A DNA stretch of 64,000 bases from Trichocoleus sp. FACHB-46 (lineage in GTDB: Bacteria; Cyanobacteriota; Cyanobacteriia; FACHB-46), in assembly GCF_014695385.1 (NCBI RefSeq), contig NZ_JACJOD010000030.1, positions 1 through 64,000 on the forward strand. Direction: 5' to 3'. This document shows, in pieces, positions 27,858-40,059 of the stretch (position 1 is its first letter; each line of letters starts with the position of its first letter). Under the pieces are notes generated by a model. It worked only from the letters and a program-made list of their open reading frames with translations. It made no database searches and had not been told where the DNA came from. Both the position numbers and the translations under genes were made by a program.

Positions 27858-29570
27858 TCAGCTTTGAGCTGATATTTTAGGAGCTAATGTAGACGATAGT
27901 TCGCAGGTTTGATCTAAGTCATCTAGCGATCGCGCTTCATCCTTAAAAACGGGTTTCGCAGTAGAGCCAAACTGGCAAGTCTGCTCGGTCTCCACCTCGA
28001 TATCAACATGGCCAGAAGTTAAGAGGGTTTCTTCAAAATTGAACTTAATCCTGGTTTGCTCAGGGGAGAAATGCTCTGAGTAAATTGGTGATGATATAGA
28101 CTCAGCTGAACTAAGTTTCGGCTGGCGTTGTATGAGTGAATAAAAGGGTTTAACGCACTGAATGATGGCTCCCGCTGCCTGATTGTACTCATAGGGATCT
28201 TCTAAACAGCTGGCAATGATTTCTAGCCGAGATTCAAGGGTGGACAGGGTTTCACACTGTTCAAATAGTTGTTGTAGTAAATAATCAAATTCACAAGCTT
28301 TGAGAGCTGACCAATCAGAAGCGCTAAAAGAGAACTTATGCTGAAGTACTGAAAAGAGCAAAATTTTGGCTCGAAGAGGATTGGTATATTTCATGATTTC
28401 GAGCCGTAGTTCAAAAGGAGCATACGCACTTTTCGCTAGCTCTGTCTCTATTCCTGGCGATCGCGCTACCTGAGAAGCTGAATGTTGATCTATCGGTTGG
28501 GTGAAACTAGCTTCAGCTTGATTATTTGAAGGCAGAGCTACTGGGGCTGAATTAATGGATTGGCAGTAGAGGGCTTCAAGAGACTGAGTGATTGTATCGG
28601 CAATTAAAAAGTAGTCTGCTTTCCGGTTTAAGGTACTAACAACACTGCTTAAAAGTAGTTTTAGGTCAGTGAGGTTGCCAGCGATCGCATGTAGCTCGGC
28701 AATTAAAACTTCTAGGGGTATTGCTTGTAGCTTGCTTGGATCATTCTCCCAATAATTCCTACAGACGCAAAGAATTAGCTTTTTGATCCGAATCTTCTCT
28801 GGTTGAGCTTCTAGATGGGAGGAAACTTGTGTGTAACAAGTTGACTCTTTGGAATAAGCTTCTTGAGCAAATTGAGGCTCAACTACCAAATTCGTCTGCT
28901 CAGTTTGAATAACTATTTGTGTATCGCCGTTGTCACTCATTAACTGAGTTGAAGCTGGCTTCTCAGCGTATAAGGTACTGAAACAATTAATAATGCTACC
29001 CACAACCAGAGAATATTCGGTTTGGCGATTAAGGGTTCTTACAATACTGTTAAGTACTAGCTCTAGGCTCTCTAGAGTTGGTGCTAGCTCCAAAGACTCT
29101 TCGACTAACTCTTGCCAGTGGTATTGCTGGAGCTGATCTAAGTTATTCTCCCAAATATTTTTGCAAATATAAGTGAGGATTTTTTTGATTCTAATTGAGT
29201 TTTTGTCTTGAGCAAGCCTACCAGCGACTCTAAGTGCCTCTTGTTGCTTTGAGGTAATATTTGACTCTAATGAAATCTCAGAATAAAGACTTTTGATTTT
29301 TTGGAAAATAAGATTGGCAATTAAACTGTACTCCGCTGGTTTGCTCAAACCTTGAGCGACCCTGGTTAGATGAGAGTTGAGAGCGCTGGAAGTGGGATGA
29401 AGGCTAAGTAATTCTTGAATAAGATTTTTTAGAGAATGAGAGTTGATAATATCTAAATTGTTTTCCCAAAAATTTTTGCAAATATAAAAAATTAGCTTTT
29501 TAATCCGAATTGAGTTTGGATGCTGTTCTAGGTCATGGGCGATCGAATGTAGCAGCTCTGTATTTGCCAT
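27858..29570 (-). CDS. Protein of four diverged ~95-residue repeats, unrecognised
   Basis: From ATG 29570 the protein has 570 residues. I do not recognise the family. Four helical units are visible at about 1-95, 103-200, 245-340 and 395-490. The first three share an I-R-I-K-K-x-(I/L) then C-(K/R)-N-x-W-E-N core, then a leucine-rich segment and a closing Y-(S/F)-L-(I/V) motif. The fourth unit keeps only the outline. Linkers are rich in Q, S and T. No signal or membrane segment is present. The long frame at 29606 starts with TTG and lacks support. It is probably co-transcribed with the downstream pentapeptide gene. Confidence 0.72.
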   Translation of the reverse strand: MANTELLHSIAHDLEQHPNSIRIKKLIFYICKNFWENNLDIINSHSLKNLIQELLSLHPTSSALNSHLTRVAQGLSKPAEYSLIANLIFQKIKSLYSEISLESNITSKQQEALRVAGRLAQDKNSIRIKKILTYICKNIWENNLDQLQQYHWQELVEESLELAPTLESLELVLNSIVRTLNRQTEYSLVVGSIINCFSTLYAEKPASTQLMSDNGDTQIVIQTEQTNLVVEPQFAQEAYSKESTCYTQVSSHLEAQPEKIRIKKLILCVCRNYWENDPSKLQAIPLEVLIAELHAIAGNLTDLKLLLSSVVSTLNRKADYFLIADTITQSLEALYCQSINSAPVALPSNNQAEASFTQPIDQHSASQVARSPGIETELAKSAYAPFELRLEIMKYTNPLRAKILLFSVLQHKFSFSASDWSALKACEFDYLLQQLFEQCETLSTLESRLEIIASCLEDPYEYNQAAGAIIQCVKPFYSLIQRQPKLSSAESISSPIYSEHFSPEQTRIKFNFEETLLTSGHVDIEVETEQTCQFGSTAKPVFKDEARSLDDLDQTCELSSTLAPKISAQS

Positions 29571-29823
29571 GATTTTTGTTTGGAAAAATGCACCTAAGCG
29601 AGCCAAGACAGCTCAAAGGAGAACTTAATGGAATTCTTTACCTTAAGCATGCCCAGTTACTTAGATGAACTTGGTACGTCACTAATAGGAGTTTATCTGG
29701 AATTAACCCCAGCTTTAGCGGTTGCAGTTTGACTACACCATCTCTTTAAAGTTTCCAGGGTTGTGCAAACCGCAACTGCTGAATTTGTGGCTCCCTGTCC
29801 GGATTAGACTGTTAGTGAATTCC

Positions 29824-30831
29824 TCAAGTTTCGCTGAAGGTCAATGCTTGACCCCGGACCTCTGTGTTCAGCTTCCCGGGGTCATAAACCACTTGGCCTC
29901 CCACAATAGTCGTTACAGGCTAGCCTGTTAACTCCCAACCTTCAAAGGGACTCCAGCGACACTTGGTTTGGAGGGTTTCACGCCTGACTGAAGCATAGTT
30001 TTCTAGGTCAAAAGTACGAGGTCAGCATCGTAACCTGGAGCGATCGCGCCTTTTTTCGGAATGCCATAAGCCTTGGCAACGGCTGTGGACATCCAATGAG
30101 CTACTTGGGCCACGGTACAGCGTCCCGCTTTAGCTTGAGTCAACATCAGAGGCAGCGAGGTTTCAACACCTGGCATGCCTGAAGGTGTGTTGGGGTAGGT
30201 TTGGGCTTTTTCTTCTAAGGTGTGTGGGGCGTGGTCAGTGGCAATAAAGTCAATTACGTCATCGAGTAAGGCTTGCCATAACGCCTCATTGTCATGAGGC
30301 GATCGCCTGTGGCAAAGATGGACTCTAGGGCTGACTCTTGATCTACCAACAAAGGGCCATGCATTGAGCCCATGAAAATCTTGATGCCACAAGCTGGTTG
30401 CGCCTCTAGTAAATCCGTGAGGTTGTCACCCGTTGCCCCGATAAAAAAGCCGTAATTCACCAAACACTTTTCCGCCGCTCGGCGCAGTTTATCGTCTAGC
30501 GCGGCTTGGTTAGTGGTTAGTGGGCGGGTGTTGGGCATTTCCAGGAAAGAAGTAACGCCTCCCTGGGCACAGGCACAACTGGCGGTAAATAAATCTTCCT
30601 TGTGCTCCAAACCTGGTTCGCGGAAGTGAACCTGCGGGTCAATCACTCCTGGCAACAAAGTGAGTCCTTGAGCGTCTATTATTTCCTGGCTGACTGCGCT
30701 ATCGATCGTATCGGAGAGGTCGGGTGCAACCTGAATAATAGTCCCTCGATTTGTACATCTCCTACCATGAGTTCACCACTGGGTAGGAGCACTTGGGCCT
30801 GGCGAATGAGTAGATGAGAGGCAGAATGCAT
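29824..30831 (-). pseudogene. Dihydroorotase pseudogene (pyrC-type, class I)
   Basis: Minus-strand reading from ATG 30831 gives [20 protein letters not shown] then a frameshift after I-E-G. In another frame come [20 protein letters not shown] with the HxH metal site, [11 protein letters not shown] and [11 protein letters not shown]. At about 30295-30305, F-A-T-G-D-R-L jumps directly, with a frame change, to [11 protein letters not shown], a junction that in intact relatives is separated by roughly 100 residues. FIATDHAPHTLEEKAQ follows. A further frameshift after D-A-D-L-V-L and a TAG inside the W-E-L-T-G-x-P-V motif precede the terminal stop at 29824. At least three frame breaks, one stop and one deletion make it non-functional. 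Confidence 0.9.
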
Positions 30832-31043: not shown

Positions 31044-31646
31044 ATGACTCGTGTGCAGAATCAAGCGTCTGACGAAAATACCCAACCACAAGTTGAAAAT
31101 CCTTGGTTAGAGGGACTCAAAACCATTGGGCTGAGTGTCATTTTAGCTTTGGGAATTCGCACTTTCGTCGCTGAAGCGCGCTATATCCCATCCGGGTCAA
31201 TGCTGCCAACGCTACAAATCAACGATCGCTTGATTGTAGATAAATTAAGCTACCACTTCCATAGCTTAGAGCGAGGCGATATTGTCGTGTTCTCTCCAAC
31301 TCAAACCTTAAAAGACCAAGGCTTTAAGGATGCATTCATCAAACGGGTGATTGGTCTACCGGGTGAGAAGGTAGAAGTCAAGGGAGGGCGAGTCTATATC
31401 AATGACCAACCGTTGAGAGAAGAGTACATTGACGAGAAACCCAGCTACCAGTGGGGGCCTGTGCAGGTAGCTTCTGACTCTTATTTAGTGCTGGGCGACA
31501 ACCGCAATAACAGCTACGACAGTCACTACTGGGGGTTTGTCCCTCGCGATCGCATCATTGGTCGAGCTGTGGTGCGTTTCTGGCCTCCCAATCGAGTTGG
31601 AGAGTTAGGCCAAGAGCCAGCTTATGAACTTAAGTCTGCTCAGTAA
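31044..31646 (+). CDS. lepB: Signal peptidase I
   Basis: The membrane serine protease removes signal peptides from exported and thylakoid-targeted proteins. It has 200 residues with a single N-terminal membrane helix (about 25-45). Nucleophile S52 lies in P-S-G-S-M-L-P-T-L and the general base K100 in [13 protein letters not shown]. The boxes [16 protein letters not shown] and [10 protein letters not shown] are present. The stop lies 4 bases from the convergent dihydroorotase-like gene. Confidence 0.95.
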
Positions 31647-31650
31647 TTCT

Positions 31651-32916
31651 TTAAGAACTAGGACACCAGGTTTGCACAATCTGACCAAGCAGCTCTTGAC
31701 CCAACCAAGGTGTGTTAATAGATAAAGACTTAAGAGACTGCCCGCTCACCACCCAAGGCTGGCTGGGGTCAAACAAAGCCAGTTCAGCAGGTTGGCCAGG
31801 TGCGACTGTGGCGACAGGCTGTTGCAAACATTTGGCTGGATTGCTGCTGAGTACGCGCCAAAGCTCTAGCGCTGTCCATTCACCACTCATGACAAAGCGT
31901 TGCCATAACAGAGGGAGTGCTAACTCTAATCCGATCGCGCCTGGAGGAGCCTCGGCAAAAGCCACTGTTTTTTCTTCATAGGTGTAAGGAGTGTGATCGA
32001 TCGCGATCGCATCTAACACGCCTTGCCTGATGCCATCAATTAAAGCGGCTTGATCCGTTAGGTTGCCTAATGGAGGCTCCAGCCGTAAGTTGGGGTCGTA
32101 GGTTTGAATCGCCTGACTATTGAGCAACAAATGCATCCAGGTGGTGCTAGCCGTAATGGGCAGACCCCGTTCCTTAGCCACTTGAATCAATTCCACGCTA
32201 CGGGCAGTCGAGACTCGCATGATATGCACAGGCGTACCGATCGCTGCAACGAGTTCGAAGAGAGCCGCGATCGCAGTGGTTTCGGCAATCGCAGGACTTC
32301 CAGGCAAGCCAAAGCGAATCGATTCTGGTCCCTCTCGCATCACCCCATTCCCTGTTAGCTTGGGGTCGCAAGGCCAAAGCGCCACAGGTTTTTGCAATGG
32401 CTGGAGATATTCCAAAAGTCGCCGCAGGAGTCCATAACTGGATAAAGCTCGGCCATCGGCAAAACCCACAACGCCTGCTGCTCCTAGCTCGGCTAGCTCG
32501 GTCATTTGTTGTCCTTGCACTCCTAGCGTCAAAGCGCCCCATGCCCGAACTTGGACTGGAAGCTGAAATTGCCGTTTGTCTTGTAACCAAGCGAGTCCAG
32601 CGGGATTGTCTAGAGCGGGGGTCGTGTCAGGCAGGATATTTAGGCGCGTGAATCCACCTGCGATCGCGGCCTGCTGTAAAGAACGTAGGGTTTCCCTGTC
32701 CTCAAATCCGGGTTCGCCAGAGTGGCTATACAAATCGACTAACCCTGGCCCTAAGATCAAGCCTCGACCATCTCGTACCTGACTATCGGTGGGCCACTCA
32801 GAGATAGAGTCTGCGATCGCCTCAATCTTGCCATCGACAATCAAGACATCGGCCACGCGATCGGTCATCGCCGCAGGATCTAAGACCCGGACTTGTTGGA
32901 GCAGTTCATTAGTCAT
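31651..32916 (-). CDS. Dihydroorotase homologue lacking metal ligands
   Basis: The protein has 421 residues with an amidohydrolase fold like class I dihydroorotase. The usual D-x-H-x-H-L-R-E-P-G is here D-L-Y-S-H-S-G-E-P-G, so the first histidine is tyrosine and the arginine is glycine. The lysine of the F-K-I-F-M motif is missing (V-V-G-F-A-D-G-R), and the H-L-S-T histidine is arginine (M-R-V-S-T). Only D-H-T-P-Y near the end keeps its aspartate. Catalysis is therefore unlikely. In several bacteria such pyrC-prime proteins scaffold aspartate transcarbamoylase; that role is inferred. It follows the double-phosphatase gene by 13 bases. Confidence 0.87.
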   Translation of the reverse strand: MTNELLQQVRVLDPAAMTDRVADVLIVDGKIEAIADSISEWPTDSQVRDGRGLILGPGLVDLYSHSGEPGFEDRETLRSLQQAAIAGGFTRLNILPDTTPALDNPAGLAWLQDKRQFQLPVQVRAWGALTLGVQGQQMTELAELGAAGVVGFADGRALSSYGLLRRLLEYLQPLQKPVALWPCDPKLTGNGVMREGPESIRFGLPGSPAIAETTAIAALFELVAAIGTPVHIMRVSTARSVELIQVAKERGLPITASTTWMHLLLNSQAIQTYDPNLRLEPPLGNLTDQAALIDGIRQGVLDAIAIDHTPYTYEEKTVAFAEAPPGAIGLELALPLLWQRFVMSGEWTALELWRVLSSNPAKCLQQPVATVAPGQPAELALFDPSQPWVVSGQSLKSLSINTPWLGQELLGQIVQTWCPSS

Positions 32917-32929
32917 GATGCCTTCGTAC

Positions 32930-34303
32930 TTACAAAGCTCCTGCTGCCGTTTTGTCTAAAACTCCACCTGCTAGGTGAGACGTAATATTCATTGCTTGCA
33001 AGACAGGGTGCCCTGCTGGGCCTTTGGGGTAGTCAATCACACTCACCGCACCATTCCCTTGCTTGAAGTTCCAGAAATTTTCTGGCCCTAAACCTGCCAC
33101 ATGACACAAAATGGCTTTGTTGATGGCATCGTGAGCCACCACCAATACGGTCTGGGGGGTGGGAGATGCAGCCGCTGTTTCGACAATGGCGTTCCAAGCT
33201 GCGATCGCCCGATCCCATACCTGTTGCAAGTTCTCACCCTCAGGCATTTGCACGGCTTCGGGGGTGGCTTGCCAGCGTTGCAACTCACCAGGAAACTCTG
33301 CCTCAATCTCTGACTCTAGCTTGCCTTCCCACAAACCATGACTGATTTCTTGCAAGGTATCGTCGAGCTTTAAATCAATGTTGGGGTGGTATTGCAGAAT
33401 AATTTCTGCTGTTTCTTTGGGCCGCTGCATTGAGCTACTTACTGCCGCATCAATGCTAATGGAGCGCAAAAACTCAGCTGCTTGTCGAGCTTGTTCGCGC
33501 CCATTGTCATTGAGTGGGACATCAATTTGACCTTGGAAGCGCTTCTGCCGATTCCATTCTGTTTCTCCGTGCCGCACCAGTAAGAGGCGGGGCCCCTTTT
33601 GACCAGAGCGACGCTTTGGCAACGGTTCGCCAAAGTGAGCGGTCAAGTTCAGAGACTCTACCTGCACAGGCGCGTCTAAGCCACCTGCAAAATTCAAGAC
33701 AGTGATGCCGCAGTTAGATTGCTGCAAAGATTGGTAGCGATCGCAATCTAGACCAATGGCAGTGCTGATCAAAGCTCGATTAATGCCGCTATGAGCGACA
33801 ACCAGAATGGTTTGGTCCCCATGCCGAGGTAAAACTTCTTGCCAAAACTGTCGAGCTTGTTCGTAAAGCGCTGGGACTGGAAAGAAATCAACTGTGCCGT
33901 TCGGTCCAGGGATTTCCATCCGTAGTTTATGCGGTTGGTCTCGCCACAACTGGATATCCTCGGGGAATTTAGCTTCGACCTCATCAAACAATATGCCTTC
34001 CCAGAGCACCAGATTGATTTCTTTGAGGTTGTCGGTTAGCTGGATTTCGGGAGGATAATGAGTAGCCGTCGGAAAGCAGGAAAGCGCTAGCTGAGCTGTT
34101 TCTTTCGCTCGTTTCAGCGGACTGCTATACACCGCATCGAAGGTGAGGCCACTCAAAGCTGCCCCAACTTTTTGAGCCGCAGCACGACCTGCTTCAGTTA
34201 AGGTTGATTGGTCACAGTGACCCTGAACACGGCGCTCAACGTTATAGCTACTCTCGCCGTGGCGCACAAGAATGACACGAGTACTCAGGGCTTTATCCTC
34301 CAA
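32930..34303 (-). CDS. Double histidine-phosphatase (phosphoglycerate-mutase-like)
   Basis: The protein contains two tandem histidine-phosphatase domains: R-H-G-E at 14-17 and 244-247, each followed by a second histidine motif (V-V-A-H-S-G at 168-173 and V-V-A-H-D-A later). Both sites look intact. The family covers cofactor-dependent phosphoglycerate mutases and broad phosphatases; metabolic role is not defined. The TTG at 34303 has a weak ribosome site, whereas GGAGG at 34301-34297 is well placed for a CTG at 34288, where the family motif M-x-T-R-V-I-L-V-R-H-G-E begins. The dihydroorotase-like gene follows in the same operon. Confidence 0.87.
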   Translation of the reverse strand: MEDKALSTRVILVRHGESSYNVERRVQGHCDQSTLTEAGRAAAQKVGAALSGLTFDAVYSSPLKRAKETAQLALSCFPTATHYPPEIQLTDNLKEINLVLWEGILFDEVEAKFPEDIQLWRDQPHKLRMEIPGPNGTVDFFPVPALYEQARQFWQEVLPRHGDQTILVVAHSGINRALISTAIGLDCDRYQSLQQSNCGITVLNFAGGLDAPVQVESLNLTAHFGEPLPKRRSGQKGPRLLLVRHGETEWNRQKRFQGQIDVPLNDNGREQARQAAEFLRSISIDAAVSSSMQRPKETAEIILQYHPNIDLKLDDTLQEISHGLWEGKLESEIEAEFPGELQRWQATPEAVQMPEGENLQQVWDRAIAAWNAIVETAAASPTPQTVLVVAHDAINKAILCHVAGLGPENFWNFKQGNGAVSVIDYPKGPAGHPVLQAMNITSHLAGGVLDKTAAGAL

Positions 34304-38889: not shown

Positions 38890-39083
38890 TTGAATTCTGA
38901 TATTACAAGCGATTGTTAAAAACCTGAAATGTTTGTTTAAGAGCCATCAACCTCTATCTATTGATTCAAATGGGTAAACTAATTAAGACATGGCTACTAT
39001 GAGTAATTTTTAGGCACAAACCTCTCAAACTTTCGTCAGGCTCTGCATTATAAGTTTTTTCCAGTTATTTGAAATTCAGCGTT

Positions 39084-39524
39084 ATGGCTTCAGAACCTAA
39101 GCAAAATCATCTTTTGATTATTGAAGACGATAAGGGGCAAAGACACTTCACCCTTGATGGCTCGGTATACACGATTGGCAGAGATGTTAAATGTGACATC
39201 TGTCTTGCTTCACTATTTGTATCTCGACGGCACGCCACCTTAGTAAAGCTGCCAAAGGAAAACGGTAGCTACTTTTATCGAATTCAGGATGGCAGTCTCA
39301 AAGGCAAGCCTAGCGTGAATGGGTTGTTGGTCAATGGCCATAAGTTACAGGGACACGACCTGCAAAACAAAGACGTAGTGGTGTTTGGTCCTTCGGTTCG
39401 GATCATTTACTTTGTTTTGGAAGAAGATGCACTAGCCAACTTAGATCCTGACGATCTAGAGATCCCGGAATTTGATGTAACGCTGATTGATCCTCGGATG
39501 GTAGGTGTTGCTTCGGAAGATTGA
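39084..39524 (+). CDS. FHA-domain protein, copy 1 of 3
   Basis: From ATG 39084 the protein has 146 residues, with one FHA domain (about 8-115) and a short acidic tail. Phosphothreonine-binding residues are present: G-R in Y-T-I-G-R-D-V-K-C-D-I, S-R-R-H and K-P-S-V-N-G-L-L-V-N-G. The tail ends E-F-D-V-T-L-I-D-P-R-M-V-G. FHA domains bind phosphothreonine, so it is probably a reader for a Ser/Thr kinase; no kinase is nearby. ATG is preferred over TTG 39069 because all three copies share the M-A-x-E-P start. Confidence 0.85.
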   Translation: MASEPKQNHLLIIEDDKGQRHFTLDGSVYTIGRDVKCDICLASLFVSRRHATLVKLPKENGSYFYRIQDGSLKGKPSVNGLLVNGHKLQGHDLQNKDVVVFGPSVRIIYFVLEEDALANLDPDDLEIPEFDVTLIDPRMVGVASED

Positions 39525-39618
39525 CGGCTAACTCCAAACCCTGCCACTTTGAATGGACCTGGCGTCATTTGCCAGTTATAACTGAAATAAGTTCGTCCAC
39601 TGCACCCACAACTTGGCG

Positions 39619-40059
39619 ATGGCATCAGAACCGATCCAAAATCACTTATTAATCATTGAAGACGGCAAAGGTCGGCGCAAGTTTGTTCTTGGTAAATCTC
39701 TTTATTCAATTGGTCGAGATGTCGGGTGTGATATCCGTCTCTCTTCCTTATTTGTAGGCCGTCATCATGCGAACTTGATTCAAAAATCCCATGAGGATGG
39801 AAGCTGTTACTATCGAATCGTAGATGGTGATCTTGACGGTAAGCCTAGTGTGAATGGATTGCTGATCAACGGCCACAAGCTTCAAGGCCATGACCTAAAA
39901 AACGAAGATGTGGTTGTTTTTGGCCCTTGCGTCCGTGTAATCTACTTCATCCTAGAAGACGGCACGATCAACAGTTTTGATCCCGATACTTGGGACATCC
40001 CTGAATTTGATATCACTTTAATTGATCCCAAAATGGTGGGTGTTGCTCCTGAAGATTGA
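39619..40059 (+). CDS. FHA-domain protein, copy 2 of 3, binding serine lost
   Basis: This 146-residue paralogue of the preceding gene begins M-A-S-E-P-I-Q-N-H-L-L-I-I-E-D. The FHA glycine-arginine (Y-S-I-G-R-D-V-G-C-D-I) and N-G-L-L-I-N-G are kept, but the S-R-x-H motif has become G-R-H-H (L-F-V-G-R-H-H-A-N), removing the serine that contacts phosphothreonine in known FHA domains. The tail E-F-D-I-T-L-I-D-P-K-M-V-G is retained. Binding may be weakened or redirected. The gap to copy 1 is 94 bases and there is no separate promoter that I can see. Confidence 0.84.
   Translation: MASEPIQNHLLIIEDGKGRRKFVLGKSLYSIGRDVGCDIRLSSLFVGRHHANLIQKSHEDGSCYYRIVDGDLDGKPSVNGLLINGHKLQGHDLKNEDVVVFGPCVRVIYFILEDGTINSFDPDTWDIPEFDITLIDPKMVGVAPED

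Follow-up and report, generated by a model that had tools for sequence, protein, structure and literature searches.

Within the 64,000 nucleotides of Trichocoleus sp. FACHB-46 analysed here (positions 1 to 64,000 of contig NZ_JACJOD010000030.1, hereafter the window), an intact gene for a dihydroorotase (DHO) homologue, designated pyrC', lies between the gene of a signal peptidase I and that of a double histidine-phosphatase, with the remnant of a second DHO gene, of the family PRK07575, on the far side of the signal peptidase gene (Table 1). The names of these two flanking genes are those that we take to apply from their sequences and general knowledge.

Table 1. Features of the pyrC' locus in the window and the grounds on which each was recognised.
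Feature	Position	Strand	Grounds
PRK07575 pseudogene, catalytic-type dihydroorotase	29835..30741 (about)	-	pieces, three frames, stop
lepB (signal peptidase I, presumed), between pyrC' and PRK07575 remnant	31044..31646	+	ORF, synteny
pyrC', dihydroorotase homologue without catalytic metal and substrate residues	31651..32916	-	ORF, NCBIfam, ligand columns, dN/dS, tree
Double histidine-phosphatase (phosphoglycerate-mutase-like, presumed), upstream neighbour of pyrC'	32930..34303	-	ORF, synteny

The pyrC' frame opens with ATG, fills its interval exactly and encodes 421 amino acids, in line with the complete, pyrC-like reading frame reported in a preliminary description of the window; a chance frame or frame artefact was rejected, both other members of the genus carrying the frame intact with about 92% identity. 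Respective to NF005614/PRK07369 of NCBIfam, i.e., a family of cyanobacterial DHO homologues named “dihydroorotase,” the protein reaches 684.7 bits for a curated cut-off of 456 and is as such a member. Homology to type I DHO spans its full length by profile, solved-structure and fold matches, where the closest solved structure by sequence is the Aquifex DHO (3d6n) and the AlphaFold model, a check proposed in the preliminary description, resembles the DHO fold with a VIA-align Z of about 34. Built on a shallow alignment and with a mean pLDDT of 70, this model is a moderate one and pocket geometry was thus not taken from it.

Among the three genus members, dN/dS of pyrC' amounts to 0.09-0.13 (NG86) or 0.14-0.21 (YN00) and purifying selection thus acts on the gene within the genus. 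At the level of the class, pyrC' is present in 129 of 139 Cyanobacteriia genomes, almost without exception in a single long open frame, and its absence is limited to 10 of the 11 genomes of one picocyanobacterial genus (g32). The view that the non-catalytic copy is kept, already put forward from the window alone, is thus borne out by both the dN/dS of about 0.1-0.2 and the class-wide conservation. While the very divergent picocyanobacterial copies and the ten genomes lacking the gene would suit an ageing duplicate heading for loss and with no selected function, such a fate is highly improbable for a gene of this distribution and selective regime, which moreover stays intact in the same genomes where its catalytic neighbour decays. 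The sole copy in g32 (G217) sits on a very long branch, in a series from retained to lost. In one genome of the family f2 (G066, L131/L169; contig 1, 3591480-3592855), pyrC' is found in pieces while the genome retains an intact PRK07575, a frameshift or an assembly error.

The broken neighbour survives as three pieces, 76-88% identical to an intact PRK07575 protein, of which they cover residues 32-179, 281-379 and 380-437; each lies in a different frame, the midsection has lost about 100 codons and there is one in-frame stop. The pieces score 259, 186 and 84 bits and no open frame exceeds the curated cut-off; it is a PRK07575 remnant and not a functional member. The pseudogene, which the preliminary description had placed 0.8 kb off, is therefore real and lies about 0.9 kb from pyrC'. 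Of 80 named cyanobacterial loci, 72 have the double histidine-phosphatase gene beside pyrC' and 18 have the order pyrC' - lepB - PRK07575; as this order recurs in cyanobacteria, the remnant sits at the former place of the gene, where both other genomes of the genus carry smaller PRK07575 scraps. No RNA element was found near the locus with Rfam.

Like pyrC', PRK07575 belongs to the DHO superfamily, and it is the ancestral neighbour of pyrC', intact in 79 of the 139 class genomes. It differs from pyrC' by a lysine-type metal site (motif GIKIFMG), by Gln at the first ligand and by forming a separate clade, as well as by being a pseudogene here; in all 26 intact copies read, Gln stands at the first ligand while H180, H232, D305 and the substrate residues are retained. 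The earlier picture of a decaying catalytic partner therefore stands as regards the decay, but the decayed gene is of a separate family and not the catalytic sister of pyrC'. Two further loci may display fresh decay of PRK07575 beside pyrC', namely that of Trichocoleus sp. FACHB-40 (L038:8301-9606), where it is split over two frames, and L112, where only the first 113 residues are matched.

Metal and substrate positions of the pyrC' protein

An active type I DHO is characterised by (i) an HxH pair, (ii) an Asp or carboxylated-Lys metal site, and (iii) R, N and H substrate residues, a set that is incomplete in the window protein. In the numbering of the Aquifex DHO, which was checked residue by residue before the ligand columns were read, the substrate residues are R65, N95 and H309, with a role known from E. 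coli DHO. The alpha-zinc ligands of the Aquifex enzyme are H61, H63 and D153, and Ala at both H180 and H232 affects its activity little (Edwards et al., 2013; PMC3880350). In the window protein, H61 is replaced by Y, H180 by W and H232 by R, while H63, D153 and D305 are retained; at the substrate positions, R65 is changed to G, N95 to D and H309 to Y, and position 258 holds Trp in place of the Pro of Aquifex. In the preliminary description, the first metal histidine had been correctly read as tyrosine and a third ligand histidine as arginine, though H180 to W and the three altered substrate residues had been overlooked; the ligand-site mapping that it advised thus reveals changes in metal as well as substrate residues. 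Its statement that the carboxylated lysine is absent is literally right but measures the protein against another DHO type: in Aquifex and in the non-photosynthetic sister lineages alike, this position holds Asp, which is normal for this DHO type and kept in the window protein, and the missing lysine was dropped as evidence of inactivity.

Since H180 and H232 can be replaced by Ala in Aquifex, R232 means little by itself, and the argument for inactivity stands on Y61 together with the altered substrate residues R65, N95 and H309. Ligand loss alone is no proof of inactivity, considering the Gln first ligand of PRK07575 and the reported activity of a PyrC paralogue of Pseudomonas that has no zinc ligands (PMC2770081). 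Taken together, these residues suggest that pyrC' very probably lacks DHO activity. A protein that is still a DHO, its metal site being either atypical or missing, could be read from the retention of H63, D153 and D305, from the likewise missing first histidine of PRK07575 (Gln 26/26) and from three genomes without any other recognised DHO (G131, G185, and G245); it is nonetheless quite improbable, as the substrate residues are changed as well and 136 of the 139 class genomes have a separate catalytic-type DHO, of two kinds, which would be redundant.

Over a crown set of 115 distinct homologues, all cyanobacterial but none from the picocyanobacterial family f20, Y61 and W258 are found in 115/115, R232 in 114/115, G65 in 106/115, Y309 in 105/115 and W180 in 97/115; from the invariance of Y61, the change is an old one. 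In the f20 copies, the same positions are altered differently, e.g., H305, N232, and L309. Crown and f20 sequences are monophyletic at 100/100, with PRK07575 and the ligand-complete clade falling outside, and all ligands are retained by 15 of 15 DHOs from the non-photosynthetic sister lineages (families f39 and f32); each of the ten f32 genomes looked at has pyrB directly adjoining the ligand-complete DHO. The intact ligands of the sisters and the grouping in the tree would place the ligand loss no later than the ancestor of Cyanobacteriia.

A new binding role for the former active site is possible on the strength of its conservation, the former active-site columns exhibiting a mean identity of 0.88 vs 0.71 for all columns (p 0.014 by permutation, in a thinned set of 54 sequences) and the newly acquired Y61, R232, and W258 hardly varying. 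pyrC' would then be a pseudoenzyme that acts in regulation or in some other kind of binding, its remade and conserved pocket (Y61, H63, D153, R232, W258, D305) accommodating a metabolite whether or not the protein touches PyrB. This account of the protein is an unlikely one, as the active-site columns are barely above their local neighbours save for D153, R232, and D305, most such positions changed again in picocyanobacteria, and no ligand is known.

Catalytic dihydroorotases of the Cyanobacteriia

The prediction of another active enzyme elsewhere, for which the preliminary description advised a genome search, proved right: an intact pyrC of the E. coli type is encoded on another contig (C41:135892-136908), with 525 bits against TIGR00856 and intact metal-site motifs, and its closest solved structure is 4lfy, presumably a Burkholderia enzyme. 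Across the 139 Cyanobacteriia genomes, 79 have an intact PRK07575, 57 an E. coli-type pyrC, none both and 3 neither. Under independence, co-occurrence would be expected in about 32 genomes vs 0 observed, a figure to be read knowing that lineages are not independent and that 35 of the 57 belong to f20; with this family set aside, the E. coli type is found in 22 genomes vs 79 for PRK07575. Both states are held within four families, and a decayed PRK07575 is accompanied by an intact E. coli-type pyrC in the genome of the window (G000) and in G292, G293, G197, G251, and G284, while PRK07575 is retained in G199, a congener of G251 and G284. The catalytic PRK07575 is thus repeatedly displaced by the E. 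coli-type pyrC, for which we infer a horizontal origin, and decays where it is replaced. As such, the window captures the replacement of a catalytic DHO part-way, a replacement that took place in many lineages of the class. As for pyrC', it occurs on either catalytic background and thus does not follow which catalytic enzyme is in use.

An earlier modelling paper had remarked on two cyanobacteria whose DHO genes allowed no orthologous pairing (PMC3359066). While the PyrC'-type system itself is known, neither the class-wide presence of pyrC' nor the repeated displacement of the catalytic gene was found in the literature searched.

The genomes with neither kind, namely G131 (L123/L187), G185 (L119/L231), and G245 (L120), have an intact pyrC' and no recognised catalytic DHO of any family; in G185, the PRK07575 copy bears three stops and there is no replacement gene. 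A hidden DHO was sought among the amidohydrolases scanned in these genomes, which turned out to be guanine, cytosine and adenine deaminases, NagA and a deaminase-like protein, and the top Amidohydro_1 matches, in frames of 571-581 aa, were taken from their length to be urease. Any one of three causes would explain these genomes: gaps in the assemblies, a DHO of an unknown kind, or catalysis by pyrC' itself.

A putative partner of aspartate transcarbamoylase

Two systems offer a precedent for a DHO homologue kept without catalysis. The pseudo-DHO (pDHO) of P. aeruginosa is inactive yet needed for the activity of aspartate transcarbamoylase (ATCase), PyrB alone forming no stable trimer (PMC7053772), and disruption of smc01361, beside pyrB in S. 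meliloti, results in pyrimidine auxotrophy (PMC5929573). Like the Pseudomonas PyrC'/pDHO of class A2, the window protein is full-length and without the zinc and substrate residues, alongside a catalytic DHO encoded at a separate locus (PMC7053772, PMC2770081); unlike it, and as far as a comparison with the published description goes, the cyanobacterial gene is not next to pyrB, which lies about 195 kb away (C30:227766-228716), so that of the features of the PyrC' class the separate catalytic DHO (E. coli-type pyrC) is present and the adjacency or overlap with pyrB, which is customary in proteobacteria but no part of the mechanism, is not.

With PyrX of S. meliloti (smc01361) and the alphaproteobacterial pDHOs, the window protein shares the loss of ligands at the same positions as well as R65 to G and N95 to D, while these have R/F at the first pair and Q at 309 where the window has Y/H and Y. 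The Sinorhizobium homologue compared here, possibly smc01361 itself, overlaps pyrB by four bases, is without ligands and has G65 and D95 like the window protein. Different ligand subsets are missing from the copies of Sinorhizobium, Azospirillum, Methylobacterium, Sphingomonas, Tritonibacter, and Acinetobacter, several of which share G65 and D95. Cyanobacterial and alphaproteobacterial pDHOs are possibly sisters, grouped with a support of 83/74 that falls to 47/7 with Acinetobacter added. The Azospirillum and Methylobacterium copies (L262, L263) keep H180 and D305, and H232 in one, with the HxH pair lost, an intermediate stage of decay. As for the DHO-ATCase dodecamer of Aquifex aeolicus (class A1, 3d6n), its DHO is the closest solved structure by sequence, ranks with the top matches by fold and has the same length, but in contrast to pyrC' it has H61, H63, H180, and H232 and is active in the complex.

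The PyrB proteins of cyanobacteria are closest to the ATCases of Bacillus and Aquifex, which function without a PyrI regulatory chain. pyrC' most likely binds or supports PyrB, judging from these analogies, and the structural role put forward in the preliminary description is plausible. With a probability of roughly two in three, the window gene is a PyrC'-type pseudo-DHO that lost catalysis and was kept as a binder and stabiliser of PyrB, catalysis being taken over by PRK07575 and then by the E. coli-type PyrC. In this scheme, (i) pyrC' would descend from a ligand-complete type I DHO, (ii) its catalysis would have been lost in or before the ancestor of Cyanobacteriia, (iii) the folded protein would have been retained for PyrB as are the Pseudomonas pseudo-DHOs, (iv) the catalytic duty would have moved to PRK07575, the ancestral neighbour behind lepB, and (v) in the present lineage, the E. 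coli-type PyrC would have taken over, PRK07575 now decaying in place. The window protein is accordingly described as probably working like PyrC' rather than filed as a proven class A2 subunit; the literature searched contained no experimental work on a cyanobacterial pyrC'.

All ten g32 genomes that lack pyrC' have kept pyrB, and the partner is thus dispensable in at least one lineage; these genomes, like the distance between pyrB and pyrC' in the present genome, weigh against a role in the support of PyrB. A signature of pyrC' loss was sought in PyrB and set aside as unpersuasive, with only six, mostly conservative, positions. It may be speculated, though with rather low odds, that the ATCase of cyanobacteria belongs to class A2, as a dodecamer based on a pseudo-DHO that was fixed no later than the ancestor of Cyanobacteriia and whose remade active site is a conserved regulatory pocket, a dependence from which g32 would have escaped by losing the partner. 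The subunit make-up of this ATCase is now directly testable, with the natural series of present, degenerate and absent pyrC' as a control. A family annotated as “dihydroorotase” throughout cyanobacteria is very probably no enzyme, and metabolic models giving the DHO reaction to PRK07369 are thus likely wrong.

Two other places of the window deserve mention: a 582-aa frame at 27858-29606 (-) contains several diverged internal repeats such as “IRIKKLI..ICKNFWENN,” and 39069-40059 (+) encodes two adjacent FHA-domain-like proteins, each of about 150 aa, that resemble one another closely, an apparent tandem duplication.
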